This document shows positions 44,690 to 53,469 of a stretch of 64,000 bases of DNA, piece after piece; within the stretch, counting starts at the first letter, position 1; every line of letters starts with the position of its first letter. The notes beneath the pieces were generated by a model. That model had not been told where the DNA came from. It saw only the letters and a program-made list of their open reading frames with translations, and made no database searches. Origin of the DNA: Glycocaulis albus (lineage in GTDB: Bacteria; Pseudomonadota; Alphaproteobacteria; Caulobacterales; Maricaulaceae); assembly GCF_014639075.1 (NCBI RefSeq), contig NZ_BMFS01000002.1, positions 62,001-126,000 on the forward strand. The letters run 5' to 3'. The translations under genes were made by a program, and so were the position numbers.

Positions 44690-44719
44690 TGATCCGGTCA
44701 AGTGTGCCGGACGTATAGA
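44690..44719 (+). promoter_or_regulatory. RpoE/ChrR-type ECF sigma promoter of the chrR-like operon
   Basis: TGATCC (44690-44695) is followed after 18 bases by TATAGA (44714-44719). TGATCC is the characteristic -35 element of the singlet-oxygen ECF sigma factor RpoE in Rhodobacter. The predicted transcript start near 44726 lies before GTG 44751 and after GTG 44682, which supports the later start for the ChrR-like gene. The same arrangement with identical spacing occurs upstream of the photolyase operon at 53440-53469. Confidence 0.75.
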
Positions 44720-44750
44720 TTTTCACAACGCCTCATGGAGATTTTGCCCC

Positions 44751-45407
44751 GTGCCTGCTCTGGACGACGCATACCTGTATGATTATGCCGCTGGTGCGGG
44801 CCCCGCAGCCGTGCGCCTGCTGACTGAGTGTCAGTCGGTCCTCAACGCGCAGGCACACACCTGCGTACAGAGCGCAGAGGCCGGTTATGGCGGCATGCTG
44901 GCTGGCCTTCCGCCAGCAGCAATGCCCGCAGACGCCCTGCAGGCTGTCATGCTCCGCGCCGGAGAGGCACAGGATGAAGCTCTCGACGGCATAGACCCTG
45001 TCACCGGTCTTCCCCGGCCGCTCAGCCCTTATCTTGAGCGGACTGCGTCTGGCGAGCTGGACTGGTCGCGCCGGATTGGCGGCTCGCAGGAAATCCTTCT
45101 TGAGGCCGTCAGTGAGGAAAACGCCGAGGCAAGCCTTGTTCGCCTCATGCCGGGCGGCGGCATTCCCCACCATGATCATGGCGGGGAGGAGCTGACGCTG
45201 GTTCTCAGCGGAGCGTTTCACGACGGTCACGCGTTATACGGGCCGGGTGATGTGTGTGTCGCCGTTCCGGGCAAGCGTCACCGTCCCGTCGTGAAGGGCG
45301 GCACACCCTGCATCTGCCTGACGGTCAATATGGGGCAGTGGAAGCCGCTCAATCCGCTTTATGCAGTGGTCGAATGGCTGACGCGTCCCCGCCGCCGCCA
45401 ACATTGA
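44751..45407 (+). CDS. ChrR-like cupin protein (anti-sigma related) with degenerate zinc site
   Basis: The 218-residue protein has the two-domain layout of ChrR, the anti-sigma factor of RpoE. The C-terminal cupin (from about residue 120) retains the metal pattern PHHDHGGEELTLVLSG and a later histidine in VAVPGKRHRPV. The N-terminal domain aligns by YLYDYAAG with ChrR, but the zinc ligands of its anti-sigma motif (one His, then H-x3-C-x2-C) are replaced: the segment reads TECQSVLNAQ. GTG 44751 is preferred over 44682 because of length and the promoter position. No sigma factor gene adjoins it, so it may be a regulon member or a zinc-independent sensor rather than a classical anti-sigma factor. 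Confidence 0.8.
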   Translation: MPALDDAYLYDYAAGAGPAAVRLLTECQSVLNAQAHTCVQSAEAGYGGMLAGLPPAAMPADALQAVMLRAGEAQDEALDGIDPVTGLPRPLSPYLERTASGELDWSRRIGGSQEILLEAVSEENAEASLVRLMPGGGIPHHDHGGEELTLVLSGAFHDGHALYGPGDVCVAVPGKRHRPVVKGGTPCICLTVNMGQWKPLNPLYAVVEWLTRPRRRQH

Positions 45408-45444
45408 ACAGCGTATCCCGATTGCCTGCCAATGGAGCAAACCG

Positions 45445-46122
45445 ATGAAAAGCCTTGTCCTCGCTGCTACCTGCTCGCTGATTGCGTTTTCGGGCCTGGC
45501 TGATGCGGCCATTCCTGCCGAGCCGCGTGGCGGAGAGACGATCCAGTTCAACGTCTATCGCGGCAATTCCGAGTTCGGCACGCACGAGGTCCGCTTCCAG
45601 CGCGATGGCGAGGAACTTGTCGCTGAAGTGTCCGTGCGTCTGCGCGCCGGCTTCGGGCCGGTCACCGTATTCCGGTATGAACATGACTCTGTGGAGCGCT
45701 GGCGTGACGGGCAGCTTGTCGCGCTCGAAGGCGAAACACTGAAAGACGGAAACCGCTTCCCGGTCCAGGCCGCGCGCAACGGATCGGGCATCGTCAGTGA
45801 AGGTGTTCTGCCCGAGGGCGAGCGCCATACCGAGGAATTGCCGCGTGATATCATCCCGTCCTCCCACTGGCGTGGCTATGAGGAAGACCTTGGCCGGATC
45901 CTGAACACCGAACATGGCGATGCCATGCCGGTTACCATTACCGATATGGGGATGGAGGAGATCGAGGCCGATGGCGGCACGATCCAGGCGCGCCGCATAC
46001 GGCTTGAAGCCACGCTCACGGTCGACCTCTGGTATGACGAGAACGGCTTCTGGGCGGGGTGTGAGTTCGAGGCGCGCGGCCAGAGCATCCGCTATGTCCG
46101 TCAGGCCAATCCGGCCGCCTGA
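45445..46122 (+). CDS. DUF6134 family secreted protein
   Basis: The 225-residue protein has a Sec signal peptide (SLVLAATCSLIAFSGLADA, cleaved near residue 22) and a beta-rich body starting IQFNVYRGNSEFGTHEVRFQ (about 33-52). The pattern of repeated short beta strands, with a late LWYDENGFWAGCEFEARG, matches DUF6134 (DUF3108-like) periplasmic proteins, which often accompany ChrR/photolyase clusters. No biochemical role is known. It lies 37 bases downstream of the ChrR-like gene, has no promoter motif of its own that I can see, and overlaps the photolyase start by one base. Confidence 0.8.
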   Translation: MKSLVLAATCSLIAFSGLADAAIPAEPRGGETIQFNVYRGNSEFGTHEVRFQRDGEELVAEVSVRLRAGFGPVTVFRYEHDSVERWRDGQLVALEGETLKDGNRFPVQAARNGSGIVSEGVLPEGERHTEELPRDIIPSSHWRGYEEDLGRILNTEHGDAMPVTITDMGMEEIEADGGTIQARRIRLEATLTVDLWYDENGFWAGCEFEARGQSIRYVRQANPAA

Positions 46123-47672
46123 TGCGCACGCTGCGGCTCGTCCTTGGTGACCAGTTGAACCGCAAACTGTCTGCCTTGCGTGGCGTGCAGCCCGGCGACA
46201 TCGTGCTGCTTGCCGAAGTGAACGATGAGGCAAGCTATGTGCCTCATCATCGCAAGAAGATTGCGTTCCTCTTCTCGGCCATGCGCCATTTCGCCGAAGA
46301 CCTGCGCGAGGAAGGGCTGACTGTCCGCTATGTCCGGCTGGACGATGAGAGCAACACCCACAGCCTGGAAGGCGAGGTGGAACGGGCGCTGGCGGACGAG
46401 CCAGGCCTTGAGCGCATCGTGCATACAGAACCCGGCGAATACCGGCTGCTGGAGATCATGCGCGAATGGCCGGACCGCTATGGCGTGCCGGTGGAGATGC
46501 GTAGTGATGACCGCTTCATCTGTTCCCATGAGCGCTTTGCAAGCTGGGCCAGTGGCAAGCAGCGTCTGACCATGGAGTATTTCTACCGTGAGATACGCCG
46601 GGAGACCGGCCTTCTGATGGACGGGGACGAGCCTGAAGGCGGCCAGTGGAATTTCGATGCGCAGAACCGCAAGGCACTGCCGGATGACGTATCGATCCCG
46701 GAGCGTGCCTGGGTCCAGCCCGATGCGATCACACGAGAGGTCATGGATCTAGTCGGAGAGCGCTTCCCGGACGGGTTCGGCGATATTGAGCCATTCGGGT
46801 ATGCGGTAACCCGCCAAGGCGCGCTCGAACAGCTGGGCTGGTTCATCAAACACGCCCTTCCAAAGTTCGGTGACTATCAGGATGCGCTGAAGGACGGAGA
46901 GGCGTTTCTCTTTCACTCCGTCCTGTCGCTCTATCTCAATTGTGGCCTGCTGGACCCGATGGAGGTGTGCCGGGAGGCAGAAGCGGCCTTTCGCGATGGC
47001 AAGGCGCCGCTGAACGCTGTTGAAGGTTTCATCCGCCAGATCATTGGCTGGCGCGAATACGTACGGGGTATCTACTGGCACTTCATGCCGGACTATCTGG
47101 AGCGCAATGCTCTTGAGGGCAGGCGGCCGCTGCCGGACTTCTACTGGACCGCAGATACCGAAATGGCCTGCATCGCCGATGTGGTCAGCACCACGCGAAA
47201 GCATGCCTATGCTCACCATATCCAGCGCCTGATGGTTACCGGCAATTTCGCGCTTCTGGCGGGGATTGATCCCAAAGCCGTCAATGAGTGGTATCTGGCC
47301 GTCTACGCCGATGCCTATGAGTGGGTCGAAGCGCCCAACACGCATGGCATGGCGCTCTACGCCGATGGCGGCATCATGGCGACCAAGCCCTATGCGGCCA
47401 GCGGCGCCTATATTGACCGGATGAGCGATCATTGTGCGGGCTGCCGCTATGATGTGAAGGCCAAGGCGGGTGAAAAGGCCTGCCCGTTCAACTATCTCTA
47501 CTGGAATTTCATGATGGAGAATGAGGTGAGGCTGAAGGGCAATCGCCGCCTCGGCCCGATCCTGTCCAACCTCAACCGTTTCAGCGATGAGCGCCGCCGC
47601 GAAATCCGCGAGGATGCCAGCCGCTTCTTCGAATCCATCGGTATCTCCCAGCCACGAAAGAAAGCATCATGA
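46122..47672 (+). CDS. phrB: Iron-sulfur (6-4) photolyase / cryptochrome-like protein (FeS-BCP, PhrB/CryB type)
   Basis: This 516-residue flavoprotein belongs to the bacterial cryptochrome and photolyase group with a [4Fe-4S] cluster, which repairs (6-4) photoproducts or senses blue light. Four cluster cysteines are present at positions 350 (EMACIADVV), 438 and 441 (DHCAGCRYD) and 454 (KACPFNYLYWNF), the same numbers I recall for Agrobacterium PhrB. The N terminus LRLVLGDQLN and the FAD-domain signature IIGWREYVRGIYW (about 305-317) are also typical. It shares a base with the preceding gene stop and overlaps the following SDR by 4 bases. Confidence 0.92.
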   Translation: MRTLRLVLGDQLNRKLSALRGVQPGDIVLLAEVNDEASYVPHHRKKIAFLFSAMRHFAEDLREEGLTVRYVRLDDESNTHSLEGEVERALADEPGLERIVHTEPGEYRLLEIMREWPDRYGVPVEMRSDDRFICSHERFASWASGKQRLTMEYFYREIRRETGLLMDGDEPEGGQWNFDAQNRKALPDDVSIPERAWVQPDAITREVMDLVGERFPDGFGDIEPFGYAVTRQGALEQLGWFIKHALPKFGDYQDALKDGEAFLFHSVLSLYLNCGLLDPMEVCREAEAAFRDGKAPLNAVEGFIRQIIGWREYVRGIYWHFMPDYLERNALEGRRPLPDFYWTADTEMACIADVVSTTRKHAYAHHIQRLMVTGNFALLAGIDPKAVNEWYLAVYADAYEWVEAPNTHGMALYADGGIMATKPYAASGAYIDRMSDHCAGCRYDVKAKAGEKACPFNYLYWNFMMENEVRLKGNRRLGPILSNLNRFSDERRREIREDASRFFESIGISQPRKKAS

Positions 47673-48457
47673 AGCCGCGCGCCATGAAACCGTCAGACGG
47701 CATCGCCTGGGTAACAGGCGGCAGCTCCGGCATCGGGGAGGCGCTGGCAAGGCGTCTCGCCGGCGAGGGCTGGACCGTCGTGATCTCTGCCAGAAGCGCC
47801 GGGAAGCTGGAAGACATCGCCAAGGCTTACACGGGCAGGGGCCGGATCATTGCGCACGCGGTTGACCTGACAGACGGCCAAGGCGTGGAAGACGCCGTGA
47901 CGGCAATTGAAGAGGCGCACGGCGCCATTGCTCTCGCCGTGCTGAATGCCGGCATATACCTCTCGGTCAATGCCGAGAACCCGTCCTTTGAGGACTATAA
48001 AAAGACATTTGATGTGAACCTGTCGGGCACTGCGGCGTGCCTGTGCGCGCTGACACCGCGTATGAGCGATCGCCGATCAGGCCAGATCGCCATCGTCTCA
48101 TCCGCCACGGCCTTTGGCGGCATGCCAACATCGTCCGCCTACGGGGCCAGCAAGGCGGCTCTGGTCAATATGGCGGGGTGCCTGCGCATCGAACTGCACC
48201 GCTATGGTGTGTTGTGCCAGGTCATCACGCCGGGCTTTGTGGAAACGCCCGCACAGGACGACAATGCCTTCCCCAAACCCTTCATGGTGAGCGCAGAAAC
48301 AGCCGCGAAGCGCATCGCGTCCGGGCTGAAATCGAAACGGTTCGAGATCACCTTCCCGCGCCGCTTCACCTGGGCGCTGAAAGGCATCTACGCCCTGCCA
48401 TACAGCTGGTCGCTGGGACTGGTGAGAAAGCAGACCGGCTGGGACAAGCCGGTCTGA
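47669..48457 (+). CDS. Short-chain dehydrogenase/reductase
   Basis: The 262-residue protein is a classical SDR: the cofactor motif WVTGGSSGIGEALARRL (about residues 14-30), the NAG motif in VLNAGIYLSV, serine of SSATAFGG and the catalytic YGASK (about 156-160). The C-terminal end is basic and hydrophobic, suggesting contact with membrane lipid. An SDR also belongs to the RpoE-controlled gene set in Rhodobacter, next to a Cfa-like gene, so a lipid-related substrate is plausible but unproven. It ends the rightward operon, 13 bases from the convergent cfa gene. Confidence 0.87.
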   Translation: MKPRAMKPSDGIAWVTGGSSGIGEALARRLAGEGWTVVISARSAGKLEDIAKAYTGRGRIIAHAVDLTDGQGVEDAVTAIEEAHGAIALAVLNAGIYLSVNAENPSFEDYKKTFDVNLSGTAACLCALTPRMSDRRSGQIAIVSSATAFGGMPTSSAYGASKAALVNMAGCLRIELHRYGVLCQVITPGFVETPAQDDNAFPKPFMVSAETAAKRIASGLKSKRFEITFPRRFTWALKGIYALPYSWSLGLVRKQTGWDKPV

Positions 48458-48470
48458 TAACGCAACCCCG

Positions 48471-49721
48471 TTACCGCTCGAGCACGAACTGGCCAACATC
48501 GATGCGGCCGGTGCGGAAGCCCGCCTCGCAATAGGCGAGGTAAAACTCCCACATGCGCCGGAAGCGCAGATCAAAGCCCATCGGCTCGATCTGTGGCCAG
48601 GCGGCCTGGAAGCGCTCCATCCATTGTGCCAGCGTATCAGCGTAATCGACGCCGAACATCTCGGCCGTTACGGGCTTCAGTTCAGCCTTGGAAAACTCGC
48701 CGTTAAGGCGCTCCACGCTCGGCAGGATGCCGCCGGGGAAGATGTAACGCTGGATGAAGTCGGTACGCTTGCGGTAGCTGTCGAACAGATCGTCTCGGAT
48801 GGTAATGATCTGCAAGCCGGCCTTGCCGCCGGGCTTCAGGCTGTCGCGCACCTTGGCAAAGTAGGACGGCCAGTATTCCTCACCGACCGCCTCGAACATC
48901 TCGATCGATGCGACCGCATCATAGCTTCCGGTCTCGTCGCGATAGTCCTGCAGCTTGATCTCGACCTTGTCCGACAGCCCCGCACGCTCCATCCGTTCAA
49001 GGGCGTATTCCCGCTGTGCAGGCGACAAGGTGAGGCAGGTGACCTTTGCGCCGATCTCGCCTGCCGCGTATTCGGCAAACCCGCCCCAGCCGCAACCAAT
49101 CTCCAGAACATGCATGTCCCGCTTCAAACCGATCAGGCGGGCAAGACTGGCGTATTTTTCTTTCTGCGCGGCCTCCAGACCCAGATCCGGCGCGGTAAAG
49201 CGCGCGGCAGAGTAGGTCATGGACGGGTCGAGCCACAGCTCGTAGAAGGCATTGCCGAGATCGTAGTGCGCCTCGATATTCTTGCGGGCCTGTGTCTTCG
49301 TGTTGGCGCGCAGGCGATGCCATATCCAGTGCGCCATCCGGGTGAGGGGGCCGCCTTTCTCGATATCATTTATTCTATCGAGGTTTGCGGAGAATACCTC
49401 CAGCACCTTGGCAAGGTTCGGCGTCGTCCACTGGCCCGCCATGTAGGATTCCGCGAAACCGACATCGCCGCCCGCAAAGACGCGTCGGACCATGGCGTAG
49501 TCGCGCACCTCCATCACGGCGTCAGCGCCCGGCTCCTTGCCCTGAAAGCGCAGGCTTCTGCCATCAGGCAGCACGACGGTCAGCGATCCGGTGCCGAATT
49601 TCAAAAGCAGGGTCAGTCCGGCCTTGAACAGGCGGGGTACGCCCTGCAGCCGCGCGATCGTTTCGCGGCACGCCCGCAGCGGCCGCGATGCGTCGAAACT
49701 GGAAAGAGCTGCGTCGGTCAT
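48471..49721 (-). CDS. cfa: Cyclopropane-fatty-acyl-phospholipid synthase family methyltransferase
   Basis: The 416-residue SAM-dependent enzyme acts on unsaturated acyl chains of membrane phospholipids. It has an N-terminal lipid-binding domain, AESYMAGQWTTPNLAKVLEV (about 90-109), the phospholipid/bicarbonate region EAHYDLGNAFYELWLDPSMTYS (here 150-171, in two halves) and SAM motif VLEIGCGWGGFAE (205-217). Cfa enzymes add a cyclopropane ring; relatives in RpoE/ChrR regulons have been linked to methylated and furan fatty acids that quench singlet oxygen. Which product is made here cannot be read from sequence. The ATG at 49721 is likely; 49733 is possible. Confidence 0.9.
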   Translation of the reverse strand: MTDAALSSFDASRPLRACRETIARLQGVPRLFKAGLTLLLKFGTGSLTVVLPDGRSLRFQGKEPGADAVMEVRDYAMVRRVFAGGDVGFAESYMAGQWTTPNLAKVLEVFSANLDRINDIEKGGPLTRMAHWIWHRLRANTKTQARKNIEAHYDLGNAFYELWLDPSMTYSAARFTAPDLGLEAAQKEKYASLARLIGLKRDMHVLEIGCGWGGFAEYAAGEIGAKVTCLTLSPAQREYALERMERAGLSDKVEIKLQDYRDETGSYDAVASIEMFEAVGEEYWPSYFAKVRDSLKPGGKAGLQIITIRDDLFDSYRKRTDFIQRYIFPGGILPSVERLNGEFSKAELKPVTAEMFGVDYADTLAQWMERFQAAWPQIEPMGFDLRFRRMWEFYLAYCEAGFRTGRIDVGQFVLER

Positions 49722-49768
49722 TCGGAAAACCATCCTTCCGGCTGACTGCCGGTCCAATTCTACGCCTA

Positions 49769-50572
49769 TTACTGCTTACGCTCAAACTGCCGGTCCGGAT
49801 GCATGGCGGAGTCGATAATTGTATCGTCCTGCGGCGCTTTGGGGCGGCGATGATATCGCGCGCCTTTGAACACCAGACGCAGCGCTTCCCAGTGAATCGC
49901 CGAAATCGTCTTCAACGTGGAAAAGGGCTGTGCCGCAAAGAGCCTGAGTAGATTGTCCGAGGTCACCGGACGGGCCTGAAGCTGCATGGTCGCCAGAAAG
50001 TCCTTGCCGGAGGCCTCGACCTTGTTGATCACGAGCGATAGCTGGTCATCGCCATCGCGCAAGGTGAAGTCGTAGCGCCCGGTAACGGGAAAGAAGGGTG
50101 AGACGTGAAAACGTTTCTGCGCGCAGTGGCGCGCCGGCATCCGGCCAGTGAGCGGCGCTACATAGGCATGGGCATCGCCGAACGTGTTGTGAACCTGATA
50201 GATGACGGCAAGTGTGTTCCCGTCCGCATCGTCGGCGAGGTAGAGCGATATCGGGTTGAAAACATAGCCCAGCACACGCGGCGAGCATAAGAGCCGCACC
50301 CGCGCTACCGCCCCGGTGACCCCCGCCCCGGCAAGCCGCGAGAGCGCCCAGCTTTTCAGCGAGGAACCGTCCCGCGGGCCGTGGTCGCGCGCGCGGAAGC
50401 TGAACAGGTTGAAGCGCTCCATCGAGAACAGGCATGAGAGGCGGCCCACTGCCTCCAGCTGGTCGAGGTCGAACATCATCATGGCAATGGAATAGCGGAA
50501 GCGGTGCACGAAGGGCTGGCTGCGTTCGTGCACGGTGCGTCCGAGGAAAAGCCGGGCAGGCGGCGTCATCAT
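49769..50572 (-). CDS. DUF1365 domain-containing protein
   Basis: The 267-residue protein has the DUF1365 signatures LFLGRTVHERSQPFVHRFRY (about residues 7-26), MMMFDLDQLEAV, CSPRVLGYVFNPISLYLADD (about 94-113) and VHNTFGDAHAYVAP. Its role is unknown, but it constantly accompanies an FAD amine-oxidase-like gene and a cfa gene, and in Rhodobacter such genes belong to the singlet-oxygen response, so it probably takes part in acyl-lipid modification. The ATG at 50572 overlaps the preceding stop as TGATG, with a second ATG immediately after it. Confidence 0.9.
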   Translation of the reverse strand: MMTPPARLFLGRTVHERSQPFVHRFRYSIAMMMFDLDQLEAVGRLSCLFSMERFNLFSFRARDHGPRDGSSLKSWALSRLAGAGVTGAVARVRLLCSPRVLGYVFNPISLYLADDADGNTLAVIYQVHNTFGDAHAYVAPLTGRMPARHCAQKRFHVSPFFPVTGRYDFTLRDGDDQLSLVINKVEASGKDFLATMQLQARPVTSDNLLRLFAAQPFSTLKTISAIHWEALRLVFKGARYHRRPKAPQDDTIIDSAMHPDRQFERKQ

Positions 50573-51942
50573 CACTCCGCGGGCAAGGCGTGAACGTCGG
50601 GCAGGCTGATGCCTGGCCGTTCCCCCCATTCTCCGCCATTTACGTCCCCGTCGGCAAATGTCCACGGAATGGCTCCCCCCAGACGCAAGGCAACCCGCAG
50701 GCCGGAACGCAGCCCGTCCTCGTGGAAGCCATAGCCCAGCCATGCACCCGCGAACCAGGTGTTGCGCACCCCCTGGATGCGATTGAAGATGCGCTGAGCG
50801 GCAAGTCCGGCCGGCGTGAATTGCGGGTGATCGTAGCTGTACCGGCCTAGAACCCTGGACGGATCCGGCTCGCGCGCGGGGTTCAAGGTAACCAGCAGGG
50901 GCTGCGCCGGATTAATGTGCTGCAGCCGGTTCATGTCGTAAGTAACTGCCGCATCGCCTGTTTCCAGATCACGCATATAGCACCATGCCGCCCGCGCACC
51001 TTTGCGGCGCGGCAGGAAGCTCTCGTCGCGGTGCAGGACGGCGGTGTTGGAGGAATAGGGGATGGCGCCCAGCATCTCGTGCTCGTCAGCATCGGCATCG
51101 CTGAGCAGGTGCAGCGCCTCGTTGGAATGACAGGCGAGAATGACCTCGTCGAACCGCTCTGCATGCCCGCCGGCATCCACGATCCGGACCCCGCCATTGC
51201 GCAGCCGCGTTACGCTCACAGCGCCGGAGCGCCGCTCAACGCCCGATGCCTCCATATCGCGCCAGAGGGCGCTGACATAGGTCTGGCTGCCGCCAACGAC
51301 CGTTTCCCACTTCGGACGCTTCGCATTCACCAGCCTGTGGTTTTTGAAGAACCGCACGAAGGCTTCTGCCGGATAGGCCGCCATGTCGCTCTCGCTGGCC
51401 GACCAGATCGCAGCCCCCATGGGCAGGAGATACTGCTCGCGGAAGCCGGGGCTGAATTCATAAAGATCGAGATACTGGCCAAGCGACAATCCGGTGAGGA
51501 CACCGCCTTCAAGATCGTCCACGGCCTGCGCGTTGAACCGCAGCACATCCCGCAGCATGCGGATGAAGGCAGGCTTCAACAGGTTGGAGGGCTGGGCAAA
51601 CAGCCCGCCAAGACCGTTCGACGACCACTCGCACGTCCCGTCGAGGCTGAAGCCGAAGCTCATGTCGGTCCTGTGGGTTTCAATCCCCAGATGACCAAAC
51701 AGGGCAGTCAGATTGGGATAGTTGAGCCGGTTGAAGACGATGAAGCCGGTATCAACGGCCGTTTCCTTGCCTGCGTGCTCGACATGAGCCGTGTTGGCAT
51801 GTCCGCCAAGACGGTTTTCCTTCTCGTAAAGCACGACCTGATGCAGGCCGCGCAGCGCCCATGCCGCGCCGAGGCCGGCCACACCCGCGCCAATGACGGC
51901 AATCCGCGAGGGACGCTTCAGTATCGGATCAATCGAGCTCAT
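50572..51942 (-). CDS. NAD(P)/FAD-dependent amine-oxidase-like oxidoreductase
   Basis: The 456-residue protein binds FAD through the N-terminal motif IAVIGAGVAGLGAAWAL (residues 13-29) followed by VVLYEKENRLGGHANT, and ends with the second flavin motif NTWFAGAWLGYGFHEDGL (about 413-430). It belongs to the flavin-containing amine oxidase/phytoene desaturase superfamily and to the subgroup found with DUF1365 and Cfa, where a fatty-acid desaturation role has been proposed. It begins with ATG overlapping the phrA stop (ATGA), so it is the second gene of the leftward photo-oxidative operon. Confidence 0.9.
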   Translation of the reverse strand: MSSIDPILKRPSRIAVIGAGVAGLGAAWALRGLHQVVLYEKENRLGGHANTAHVEHAGKETAVDTGFIVFNRLNYPNLTALFGHLGIETHRTDMSFGFSLDGTCEWSSNGLGGLFAQPSNLLKPAFIRMLRDVLRFNAQAVDDLEGGVLTGLSLGQYLDLYEFSPGFREQYLLPMGAAIWSASESDMAAYPAEAFVRFFKNHRLVNAKRPKWETVVGGSQTYVSALWRDMEASGVERRSGAVSVTRLRNGGVRIVDAGGHAERFDEVILACHSNEALHLLSDADADEHEMLGAIPYSSNTAVLHRDESFLPRRKGARAAWCYMRDLETGDAAVTYDMNRLQHINPAQPLLVTLNPAREPDPSRVLGRYSYDHPQFTPAGLAAQRIFNRIQGVRNTWFAGAWLGYGFHEDGLRSGLRVALRLGGAIPWTFADGDVNGGEWGERPGISLPDVHALPAE

Positions 51943-53393
51943 GCAGCATCCTTGAGGCTGGAAAACGCGGCCAGCGCACGTTCGCGAGCCTTTGGGTGAT
52001 CGACAATCGGTTCGGGGTAGTCCCGCCCCAGCTTTATTCCGGCCCGCGAGAGCTCCTCAGCGGGCGCAGTCCAGGGGGCGTGGATGTATTTGGCGGACAG
52101 TCTGGAAAGTTCCGGCACCCATTCGCGGACATAGCTGCCGGCCTCGTCAAACTTCTTGCCCTGCGTCACTGGATTGAAGATGCGGAAATAGGGCGCGGCG
52201 TCCGCGCCGGAACCAGCCACCCACTGCCAGCTGGCGGCGTTATTGGCAAGATCGGCATCGACCAACGTATCCCAGAACCATTCTTCGCCCCGGCGCCAGT
52301 CAATCAGCAGGTGTTTGGTCAGGAATGACGCGACGATCATGCGCACCCGGTTATGCATCCAGCCTGTCTGCCAGAGCTGGCGCATCCCGGCATCGACAAT
52401 CGGATAGCCGGTCTGTCCGCGAGTCCATTTCTCGAACGATCCCTCATCAAAATCCCACGGAAAGCCGTTGAATTTAGTCTGGTAATTCGATTCCGGCAGA
52501 TCATCGAAATGGAAGAGGAGATTGTAGGAAAACTCCCGCCAGCCGATTTCCTTCAGAAACGTTTCACGGCCCTTTCCCGCGGGCACATGCCTGACGGTGT
52601 GATGCCAGACCTGACGCGGGGAGATTTCCCCGAAATGAAGATGCGCAGAGAGCCGCGAGGTACCTTCAGTGCCCGGCAGGTTGCGGGTGCCGGCATACTC
52701 ACTCGCGGCGTCCTCGCAAAACGTTTCAAGCCGCTCGCGCGCGCCAGCCTCGCCAGGTGTCCAGACAGGTGAAAAACCCTTCGACCAGTCCGGCGCAGAG
52801 GGCAGCAGCGACCAGTTGGAGAGCGCATCGGAGTGCGCGCCGTCCGATCCGTCCTTGATGGCGCCCGGCGCCGGCAGGAGGGCGACGTCATCACAATGCG
52901 GGGCAAGTGCACGGAAATAGGGGGAGTAGACGCGGAACGGCCCGCCATCCTTGGTTTTCAGGTGCCATGGTTCGACCAGCAGGGATCCGTTGAAGGTCTC
53001 CGCCCCTATACCGCCATCCGTGAGCTGCGCCTTGATCTGCGCGTCGCGTTCGCGGGCGGAAGGCTCGTAACAGCGATTCCAGAAAACAGTCTGTGCACCA
53101 AGCTCGCTGGCAAGGCCCGTCACGATCTCGAACGCGTCTCCGCGGCGCAGGATCAGCCGCGTGCCAAGCCGCTGCAGACCGGCATCGAGCGAAGCAAGGC
53201 TGTGATGCAGCCACCAGCGCGACGCCCCGCCCATGGCCCATTTGCCTGGGGTCTTGTCGTCGAGCACGTAAAGGCAGATCAACGGCGCGCCGCTCGCGGC
53301 GGCGGCATGAAGCGCAGGATTGTCGGCCAGCCTCAGGTCCTGACGGAACCAGCAGATGACAGGGCAAGAACCAGAATGCGTTGAGGTGGACAC
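51939..53393 (-). CDS. phrA: CPD deoxyribodipyrimidine photolyase
   Basis: PhrA repairs cyclobutane pyrimidine dimers using blue light. The 484-residue protein has the N-terminal antenna domain (CWFRQDLRLADNPALHAA, residues 14-31), the DNA and FAD contacts WREFSYNLLFHF, GQTGYPIVDAGMRQLWQTGW (about 335-354) and MHNRVRMIVASFLTKHLLID (about 355-374), and the FAD signature DADLANNAASWQWVAGSGAD (about 392-411). The start is GTG at 53393. It is the first gene of the leftward operon and stands about 40 bases downstream of a predicted transcript start from the promoter at 53440-53469. Confidence 0.94.
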   Translation of the reverse strand: MSTSTHSGSCPVICWFRQDLRLADNPALHAAAASGAPLICLYVLDDKTPGKWAMGGASRWWLHHSLASLDAGLQRLGTRLILRRGDAFEIVTGLASELGAQTVFWNRCYEPSARERDAQIKAQLTDGGIGAETFNGSLLVEPWHLKTKDGGPFRVYSPYFRALAPHCDDVALLPAPGAIKDGSDGAHSDALSNWSLLPSAPDWSKGFSPVWTPGEAGARERLETFCEDAASEYAGTRNLPGTEGTSRLSAHLHFGEISPRQVWHHTVRHVPAGKGRETFLKEIGWREFSYNLLFHFDDLPESNYQTKFNGFPWDFDEGSFEKWTRGQTGYPIVDAGMRQLWQTGWMHNRVRMIVASFLTKHLLIDWRRGEEWFWDTLVDADLANNAASWQWVAGSGADAAPYFRIFNPVTQGKKFDEAGSYVREWVPELSRLSAKYIHAPWTAPAEELSRAGIKLGRDYPEPIVDHPKARERALAAFSSLKDAA

Positions 53394-53439
53394 GATATTG
53401 AAAGCCGCAGTGCAAGGATGACGGGAATACCTATGTCAG

Positions 53440-53469
53440 CTATTACGAACACAACTCGCGCGCGGATCA
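53440..53469 (-). promoter_or_regulatory. RpoE/ChrR-type ECF sigma promoter of the phrA operon
   Basis: On the minus strand TGATCC (53469 to 53464) is followed after exactly 18 bases by TAATAG (53445 to 53440), about 47 bases before the phrA GTG. Element and spacing agree with the promoter at 44690-44719 at the other end of the cluster. A sigma factor like RpoE of Rhodobacter is expected to read both. Confidence 0.75.

Follow-up and report, generated by a model that had tools for sequence, protein, structure and literature searches.

The question raised by this locus is how two converging operons, one headed by a relative of the anti-sigma factor ChrR and the other by a DNA photolyase gene, are controlled, and what a ChrR protein encoded without an adjacent sigma gene might do there. 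The block studied is an 8.8 kb convergent stretch (positions 44690-53469) of the marine-type alphaproteobacterium Glycocaulis albus, and lies within the 64-kb stretch of DNA analysed here, referred to as the window. At the sequence level we drew on promoters, gene content, conservation, the sigma gene, the features of the ChrR paralogue and a missing promoter before rpoE-chrR1. These indicate that the block is very probably a two-operon island of an oxidative-stress regulon governed by an ECF11 (RpoE/ChrR-type) extracytoplasmic function (ECF) sigma factor. More tentatively, the ChrR protein encoded at its left end, designated ChrR2, could be an induced second anti-sigma factor that limits the response by feedback. 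Taken as a whole, a regulon island combined with ChrR2 feedback is the best explanation, and a likely one.

The block is bracketed by two promoter sites. As reference we used the published ECF11 element TGATCC-N16-CGTA, a consensus derived from chromatin immunoprecipitation (ChIP) in Pseudomonas syringae (PMC5507510); TGATCC and CGTA are also present in the ECF11 sites of Shewanella (PMC4336711). One site, at 44690..44715 on the plus strand, lies 35 nucleotides (nt) upstream of the start codon of chrR2 and serves the rightward operon, while the other, at 53444..53469 on the minus strand, lies 50 nt upstream of the start codon of the photolyase gene phr and serves the leftward operon. All ten consensus bases are matched at both sites (0 mismatches), and there is no other exact match within the window. 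A first-pass annotation of this DNA had correctly located TGATCC at 44690-44695 (plus strand) and 53469-53464 (minus strand), and the two operons and the 13-base gap between them (48458-48470) are as it described. Its -10 strings, TATAGA (44714-44719) and TAATAG (53445-53440), were correctly positioned but wrongly framed, as both hexamers start at the TA of CGTA and the true element begins two bases upstream.

The number of such sites is a poor guide. The ten-base pattern occurs at a mean of 4.6 sites per genome in relatives without a chrR gene and 6.7 in genomes with two ChrRs (Mann-Whitney p 0.006, phylogeny ignored); because it is common even in the ChrR-less relatives, site count alone is no evidence, and motif counting was rejected as an argument for the regulon. 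A reversed-pattern control gave 0 matches in this genome, but underestimates the background. The weight of the promoter evidence lies instead in position and conservation. The chance of a site within one given 100-nt upstream stretch is p ~8e-5. An alignment of the regions upstream of chrR from 17 genomes, built without motif anchoring, has TGATC and CGTA as its sole invariant columns. Furthermore, of the 24 relatives that carry such a sigma-less (orphan) chrR, 23 have an exact site before it and the remaining one differs by a single mismatch. Most block-bearing relatives have an exact site before phr, which is absent in genome G009 and in Oceanicaulis PL25a; its conservation is taken from direct pattern matches, several sequences in the phr upstream alignment being misaligned or cut. 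Among the relatives the spacers between TGATCC and CGTA have diverged, and the distances to the start codons are fixed. Gene order is kept as well: tblastn against 20-kb stretches recovered cysK, then promoter-chrR2-DUF6134-FeS photolyase-SDR converging on ufaM-ufaO-ufaD-phr-promoter, then kdsA-rfaE, in congeners and further genera, and the same convergent block is found in named Oceanicaulis and Glycocaulis records. Another exact site, at contig 1:279209, was discarded as it lies inside a reading frame.

An ECF11-type sigma gene, whose presence the first-pass annotation had demanded as a check, is found on contig 1, where it forms a pair with the directly following chrR1, the product of which scores above the TIGR02451 cut-off. 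The sigma factor gives 146 bits to Rhodobacter sphaeroides SigE (2q1z), at 47% identity vs 28% for the next-best sigma, and among the eleven sigma-region-2 matches in the genome it is the only one that resembles SigE well. With exact ECF11 promoters at both ends of the block, kept in relatives, and a sigma-chrR pair in the same genome, the earlier proposal of a single regulon for both operons is well supported. We infer that the contig-1 sigma factor reads both block promoters and that the signal is singlet oxygen or organic peroxide.

To establish a context for ChrR2, the R. sphaeroides protein is instructive. Its anti-sigma domain binds zinc via H6, H31, C35 and C38, which is required for inhibition, and its cupin domain binds a second zinc via H141, H143, E147 and H177; the role of the anti-sigma-domain zinc in the singlet-oxygen response has been described as unknown (PMC6852236). 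The chrR2 frame (44751..45407, plus strand) is open from 44682, with its likely start at GTG 44751, 35 nt past CGTA. ChrR2 has A, Q, N and A at the four anti-sigma zinc positions and keeps all four cupin ligands (HHEH), so it is not claimed as a member of the zinc anti-sigma (ZAS) family. Its AlphaFold model (predicted local distance difference test, pLDDT, 87.7) consists of a helical N-domain and a cupin, and the top Protein Data Bank (PDB) match is the ChrR of 2q1z, with a template modelling (TM) score of 0.83 by target length over 190 columns that cover both domains. The lead gene reported earlier as ChrR-like is indeed a ChrR relative, but as an orphan paralogue without zinc cysteines rather than the operon partner of a sigma factor. 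Zinc-free inhibition is plausible, since in RseA the anti-sigma bundle is maintained without zinc. The ratio of anti-sigma to cupin domain identity is 0.76 for ChrR2 and 0.79 for ChrR1, so the anti-sigma domain of ChrR2 is under no visibly weaker constraint; a relaxed anti-sigma domain finds no support in these values. The invariant C187 and C189 of ChrR2 share their numbering with R. sphaeroides cysteines reported to be dispensable for activation.

The distribution of orphans across relatives bears on the circuit. A usable ChrR was available from 53 relatives, of which 24 have an orphan chrR and 29 do not. An exact ECF11 site before rpoE was found in 0/24 orphan-bearing genomes, this one among them, and their best match there equals that of shuffled sequence (mean 3.5 mismatches), whereas genomes without an orphan have an exact site in 9/29 and a site with at most one mismatch in 12/29 (Fisher p 0.0026, again with phylogeny ignored). 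Allowing as many as 4 mismatches and a spacer of 15-17 revealed no hidden site before rpoE that beats shuffles, the nearest being in genome G078 with 2 mismatches. The autoregulation of rpoE-chrR that is one mark of an ECF11 regulon is missing from this genome and the 23 other orphan carriers, and because rpoE-chrR has no site of its own the island is filed as a variant of the ECF11 regulon.

Both zinc cysteines, C35 and C38, are absent from 23/23 alignable orphans, as they are from the sigma-paired ChrR1 of these genomes, and the cupin HHEH set is present in all. Paired ChrRs from other lineages of the order (e.g. G015, G025, G031 and G074) retain all eight ligands. Three genomes (G014, G030, G041) have a single ChrR without zinc cysteines and an autoregulated rpoE, so that loss of the zinc cysteines was a separate event from loss of the promoter. 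In the ChrR tree the orphans are grouped on one side of a branch (support 84/89, 88% of bootstrap trees), beside a group of zinc-less ChrR1 proteins that come from the same lineages as the orphans. A convergent origin was rejected, since a single group is favoured by the tree, albeit at no more than 84/89. Outside this order, two strong ChrR matches per genome occur in only a handful of a 289-genome class sample, mostly with both above the cut-off, and weak orphans may have escaped in that sample. In two genera of another family (g22 and g32), an orphan chrR2 is preceded by an exact ECF11 site but has no photolyase operon with it, and in g22 a DUF6134-like gene directly follows it; the pairing of chrR2 with DUF6134 appears to predate the island.

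These observations fit the following scheme. On singlet oxygen or organic peroxide in the membrane or cytoplasm, ChrR1 would release the ECF11 sigma factor, and RNA polymerase carrying it would initiate at TGATCC-N16-CGTA at both ends of the block. The leftward transcript would yield a photolyase for cyclobutane pyrimidine dimers (CPD) and the furan-fatty-acid enzymes UfaD-UfaO-UfaM, and the rightward transcript ChrR2 first, then an EipB-like protein, a (6-4) iron-sulfur (FeS) photolyase and a short-chain dehydrogenase/reductase (SDR). The photolyases would repair DNA while UfaM, UfaD and UfaO remodel membrane lipids, and ChrR2 would build up, recapture the sigma factor and turn the response off. 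With autoregulation of rpoE-chrR1 lost, induction would raise the inhibitor only, giving a purely negative loop and a self-limiting pulse where the Rhodobacter type induces sigma and anti-sigma factor together; negative feedback would have shifted from the sigma operon to a second anti-sigma factor. Extended to the whole alphaproteobacterial order, this could be a rewiring of the RpoE-ChrR circuit in which the sigma-operon promoter was lost and a duplicated, zinc-free ChrR, now heading a repair operon, became an inducible off-switch, a proposal that we hold to be quite possible yet short of probable.

Several findings weigh against ChrR2 as an off-switch. Its TIGR02451 score, 96.8 bits, is below the family cut-off of 124.5, and only D11, G15 and P18 of the N-domain are invariant across the orphans. 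Moreover, six members of the ChrR1 clade lack the rpoE promoter and have no orphan that could be found; promoter loss is thus a property of one clade that extends to orphan-less members, and a single event without a causal link may account for the swap.

The strongest competing explanation keeps the island under ECF11 control and makes ChrR2 a metal-cupin effector without sigma action. The protein would work enzymatically, as a scavenger or by binding oxidised lipid or furan-fatty-acid products, helping the lipid branch, and its N-domain would be a remnant. We regard this explanation as a serious though somewhat doubtful possibility. Seven cupin residues (W105, H141, H143, E147, H177, C187 and C189) are invariant in all orphans vs three in the N-domain; chrR2 has no adjacent sigma gene, no zinc cysteines and a score under the family cut-off; and cupin enzymes appear among the structural matches of ChrR2. 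However, the N-domain is present in all orphans at a relative constraint equal to that in ChrR1, the top structural match across both domains is ChrR itself, and ChrR1 is equally devoid of zinc cysteines yet is paired with a sigma gene. A different role, in which ChrR2 serves as decoy or signal buffer, vying with ChrR1 for the sigma factor, the releasing signal or the protease and thereby sensitising or prolonging the response, would agree with the domain plan and cupin metal site shared with ChrR1 and with the predicted co-induction with repair genes, but a simple inhibitor requires fewer assumptions and we consider the decoy unlikely. Finally, that the block sites are chance matches or are read by a different ECF sigma factor, as the background of ~4.6 sites per ChrR-less genome and the eleven sigma-region-2 matches might suggest, is highly improbable in view of their exact conservation amid diverged spacers at fixed distances from start codons, their identity to the ECF11 consensus of Pseudomonas and Shewanella, and the single sigma factor with good resemblance to SigE.

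With the regulon island and ChrR2 feedback as the preferred explanation, the remaining genes can be described. Domain search of the rightward operon returned a ChrR-like Cupin_7, DUF6134, DPRP and SDR. The DUF6134 protein (45445..46122, plus strand; PF19630) has a hydrophobic N-terminal helix and is likely exported; its beta-rich model (pLDDT 89.7) has 6ntr (EipB, DUF1849) as top PDB match at TM ~0.6, which suggests that it is probably EipB-like and periplasmic. Brucella EipB is a periplasmic envelope protein with a role in envelope integrity, by a mechanism not established. The third gene (46122..47672, plus strand; PF04244) encodes a PhrB-type FeS bacterial cryptochrome/(6-4) photolyase that aligns over its length with PhrB 4dja (636 bits), with the C-terminal CxxC...C cluster cysteines, the upstream cysteine and the HHIQR motif kept. 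By sequence it is a member of the FeS-BCP (6-4) family, and lesion repair is predicted; R. sphaeroides CryB, of the same family, showed no significant repair (PMC3320616). In Shimia sp. R10_1, from a different alphaproteobacterial order, an exact ECF11 site (9914) stands 87 nt before an FeS photolyase gene (10001). The SDR gene (47669..48457, plus strand; PF00106) ends the operon, and the convergent stop codons are separated by the 13-bp gap.

Leftward, the domain search returned an FAD_binding_7 photolyase, an amine-oxidase-type flavin adenine dinucleotide (FAD) protein, DUF1365 and CMAS. All four genes are on the minus strand. The CPD-type photolyase (51939..53393, GTG start; PF03441/PF00875) has 4u63 as top PDB match (581 bits), which we take to be Agrobacterium PhrA, a CPD photolyase of class III; both photolyase classes are therefore present in the block, as had been claimed. 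It is followed by genes for a UfaD-like FAD-dependent oxidoreductase (50572..51942; PF01593/PF13450), a UfaO-like DUF1365 protein (49769..50572; PF07103) and a UfaM-like fatty-acyl methyltransferase of the Cfa/CMAS family (48471..49721; PF02353). In R. sphaeroides UfaM, UfaD and the DUF1365 protein UfaO produce methylated furan fatty acids (PMC7380195), and the same ufaD-ufaO-ufaM order stands beside rpoE-chrR in Rhizobium paknamense. The lipid branch reported earlier is thus present, but in place of plain cyclopropane synthesis the trio better matches ufaD/ufaO/ufaM and is predicted to form the furan-fatty-acid pathway. As turnover of R. sphaeroides ChrR requires furan fatty acids (PMC6852236), lipid modification may in turn influence the switch.

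A genome-wide promoter search, also proposed at first pass, gave further exact ECF11 sites 44 nt before rpoH (contig 3:253605), 94 nt before a fasciclin gene (contig 5:120244) and 38 nt before a YceI gene (contig 6:125894), all of which recur in congeners. The RpoH protein is above the cut-off of NF005693/PRK07500, presumably the RpoH2 type, and an RpoE-to-RpoHII cascade is known in Rhodobacter. No photosynthetic reaction centre was found in this genome, which is therefore not that of a phototroph, and light is only a candidate trigger; singlet oxygen or organic peroxides of other origin would suit the inducing signal equally well. Additionally, at contig 1:19811-19955 an exact site precedes ~100 intergenic nt that form two strong hairpins (fold z-score -5.5); across congeners the second of these shows compensatory changes and T-rich ends. 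The RNA matched no Rfam family, and homology to Caulobacter GsrN is unsupported, C-rich loops being the only likeness among the features tested. Its ECF11 site is exact in five members of the genus, while other genera keep the RNA without the site; this pattern makes it a candidate small RNA drawn into the regulon within this genus.

The gene content of the island is already-known regulon material of Rhodobacter, Shewanella and Pseudomonas. R. sphaeroides RpoE-ChrR likewise uses TGATCC promoters and targets phrA, ufaM, ufaD, ufaO, an SDR gene and rpoHII. There, however, rpoE-chrR is a core target of itself, while here rpoE-chrR1 has no such site; there a single zinc ChrR is present, here two ChrRs without zinc cysteines; and there the FeS protein CryB is under RpoHII (PMC3320616), whereas here an ECF11 site directly precedes the FeS photolyase operon. 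Shewanella oneidensis RpoE2-ChrR has the same two gene sets with predicted sites, a DPRP-type phr with an SDR gene and a phrB...cfa operon, so the FeS photolyase-SDR pairing is not new; its sets are at separate loci instead of one convergent block, its rpoE2-chrR is autoregulated with a mapped start, and no second ChrR or DUF6134 was reported (PMC4336711). P. syringae PSPTO_1043 has the same ChIP motif and a phrB-to-cfa operon that includes genes for an FAD oxidoreductase and an SDR, but one ChrR, paired with sigma in an operon that carries the site, and no chrR-led FeS photolyase operon (PMC5507510). The UfaM-UfaD-UfaO pathway has the same three families in the order D-O-M (PMC7380195); here they form one operon behind a photolyase gene, with a predicted product.

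The new element is the orphan, zinc-cysteine-less ChrR that leads an operon, a control-circuit variant in an unusually tidy arrangement; no earlier description of a second ChrR was found in a literature search whose scope left out Dufour 2008, the main comparative regulon study. Because these lineages carry naturally occurring ChrRs that lack the zinc cysteines but have an intact cupin site, the two metal sites are separable without engineering. If the proposed rewiring is true, sensing would depend solely on the cupin metal site, the anti-sigma domain being zinc-free, and the orphan ChrR offers a natural comparison between feedback within the sigma operon and feedback within the regulon.

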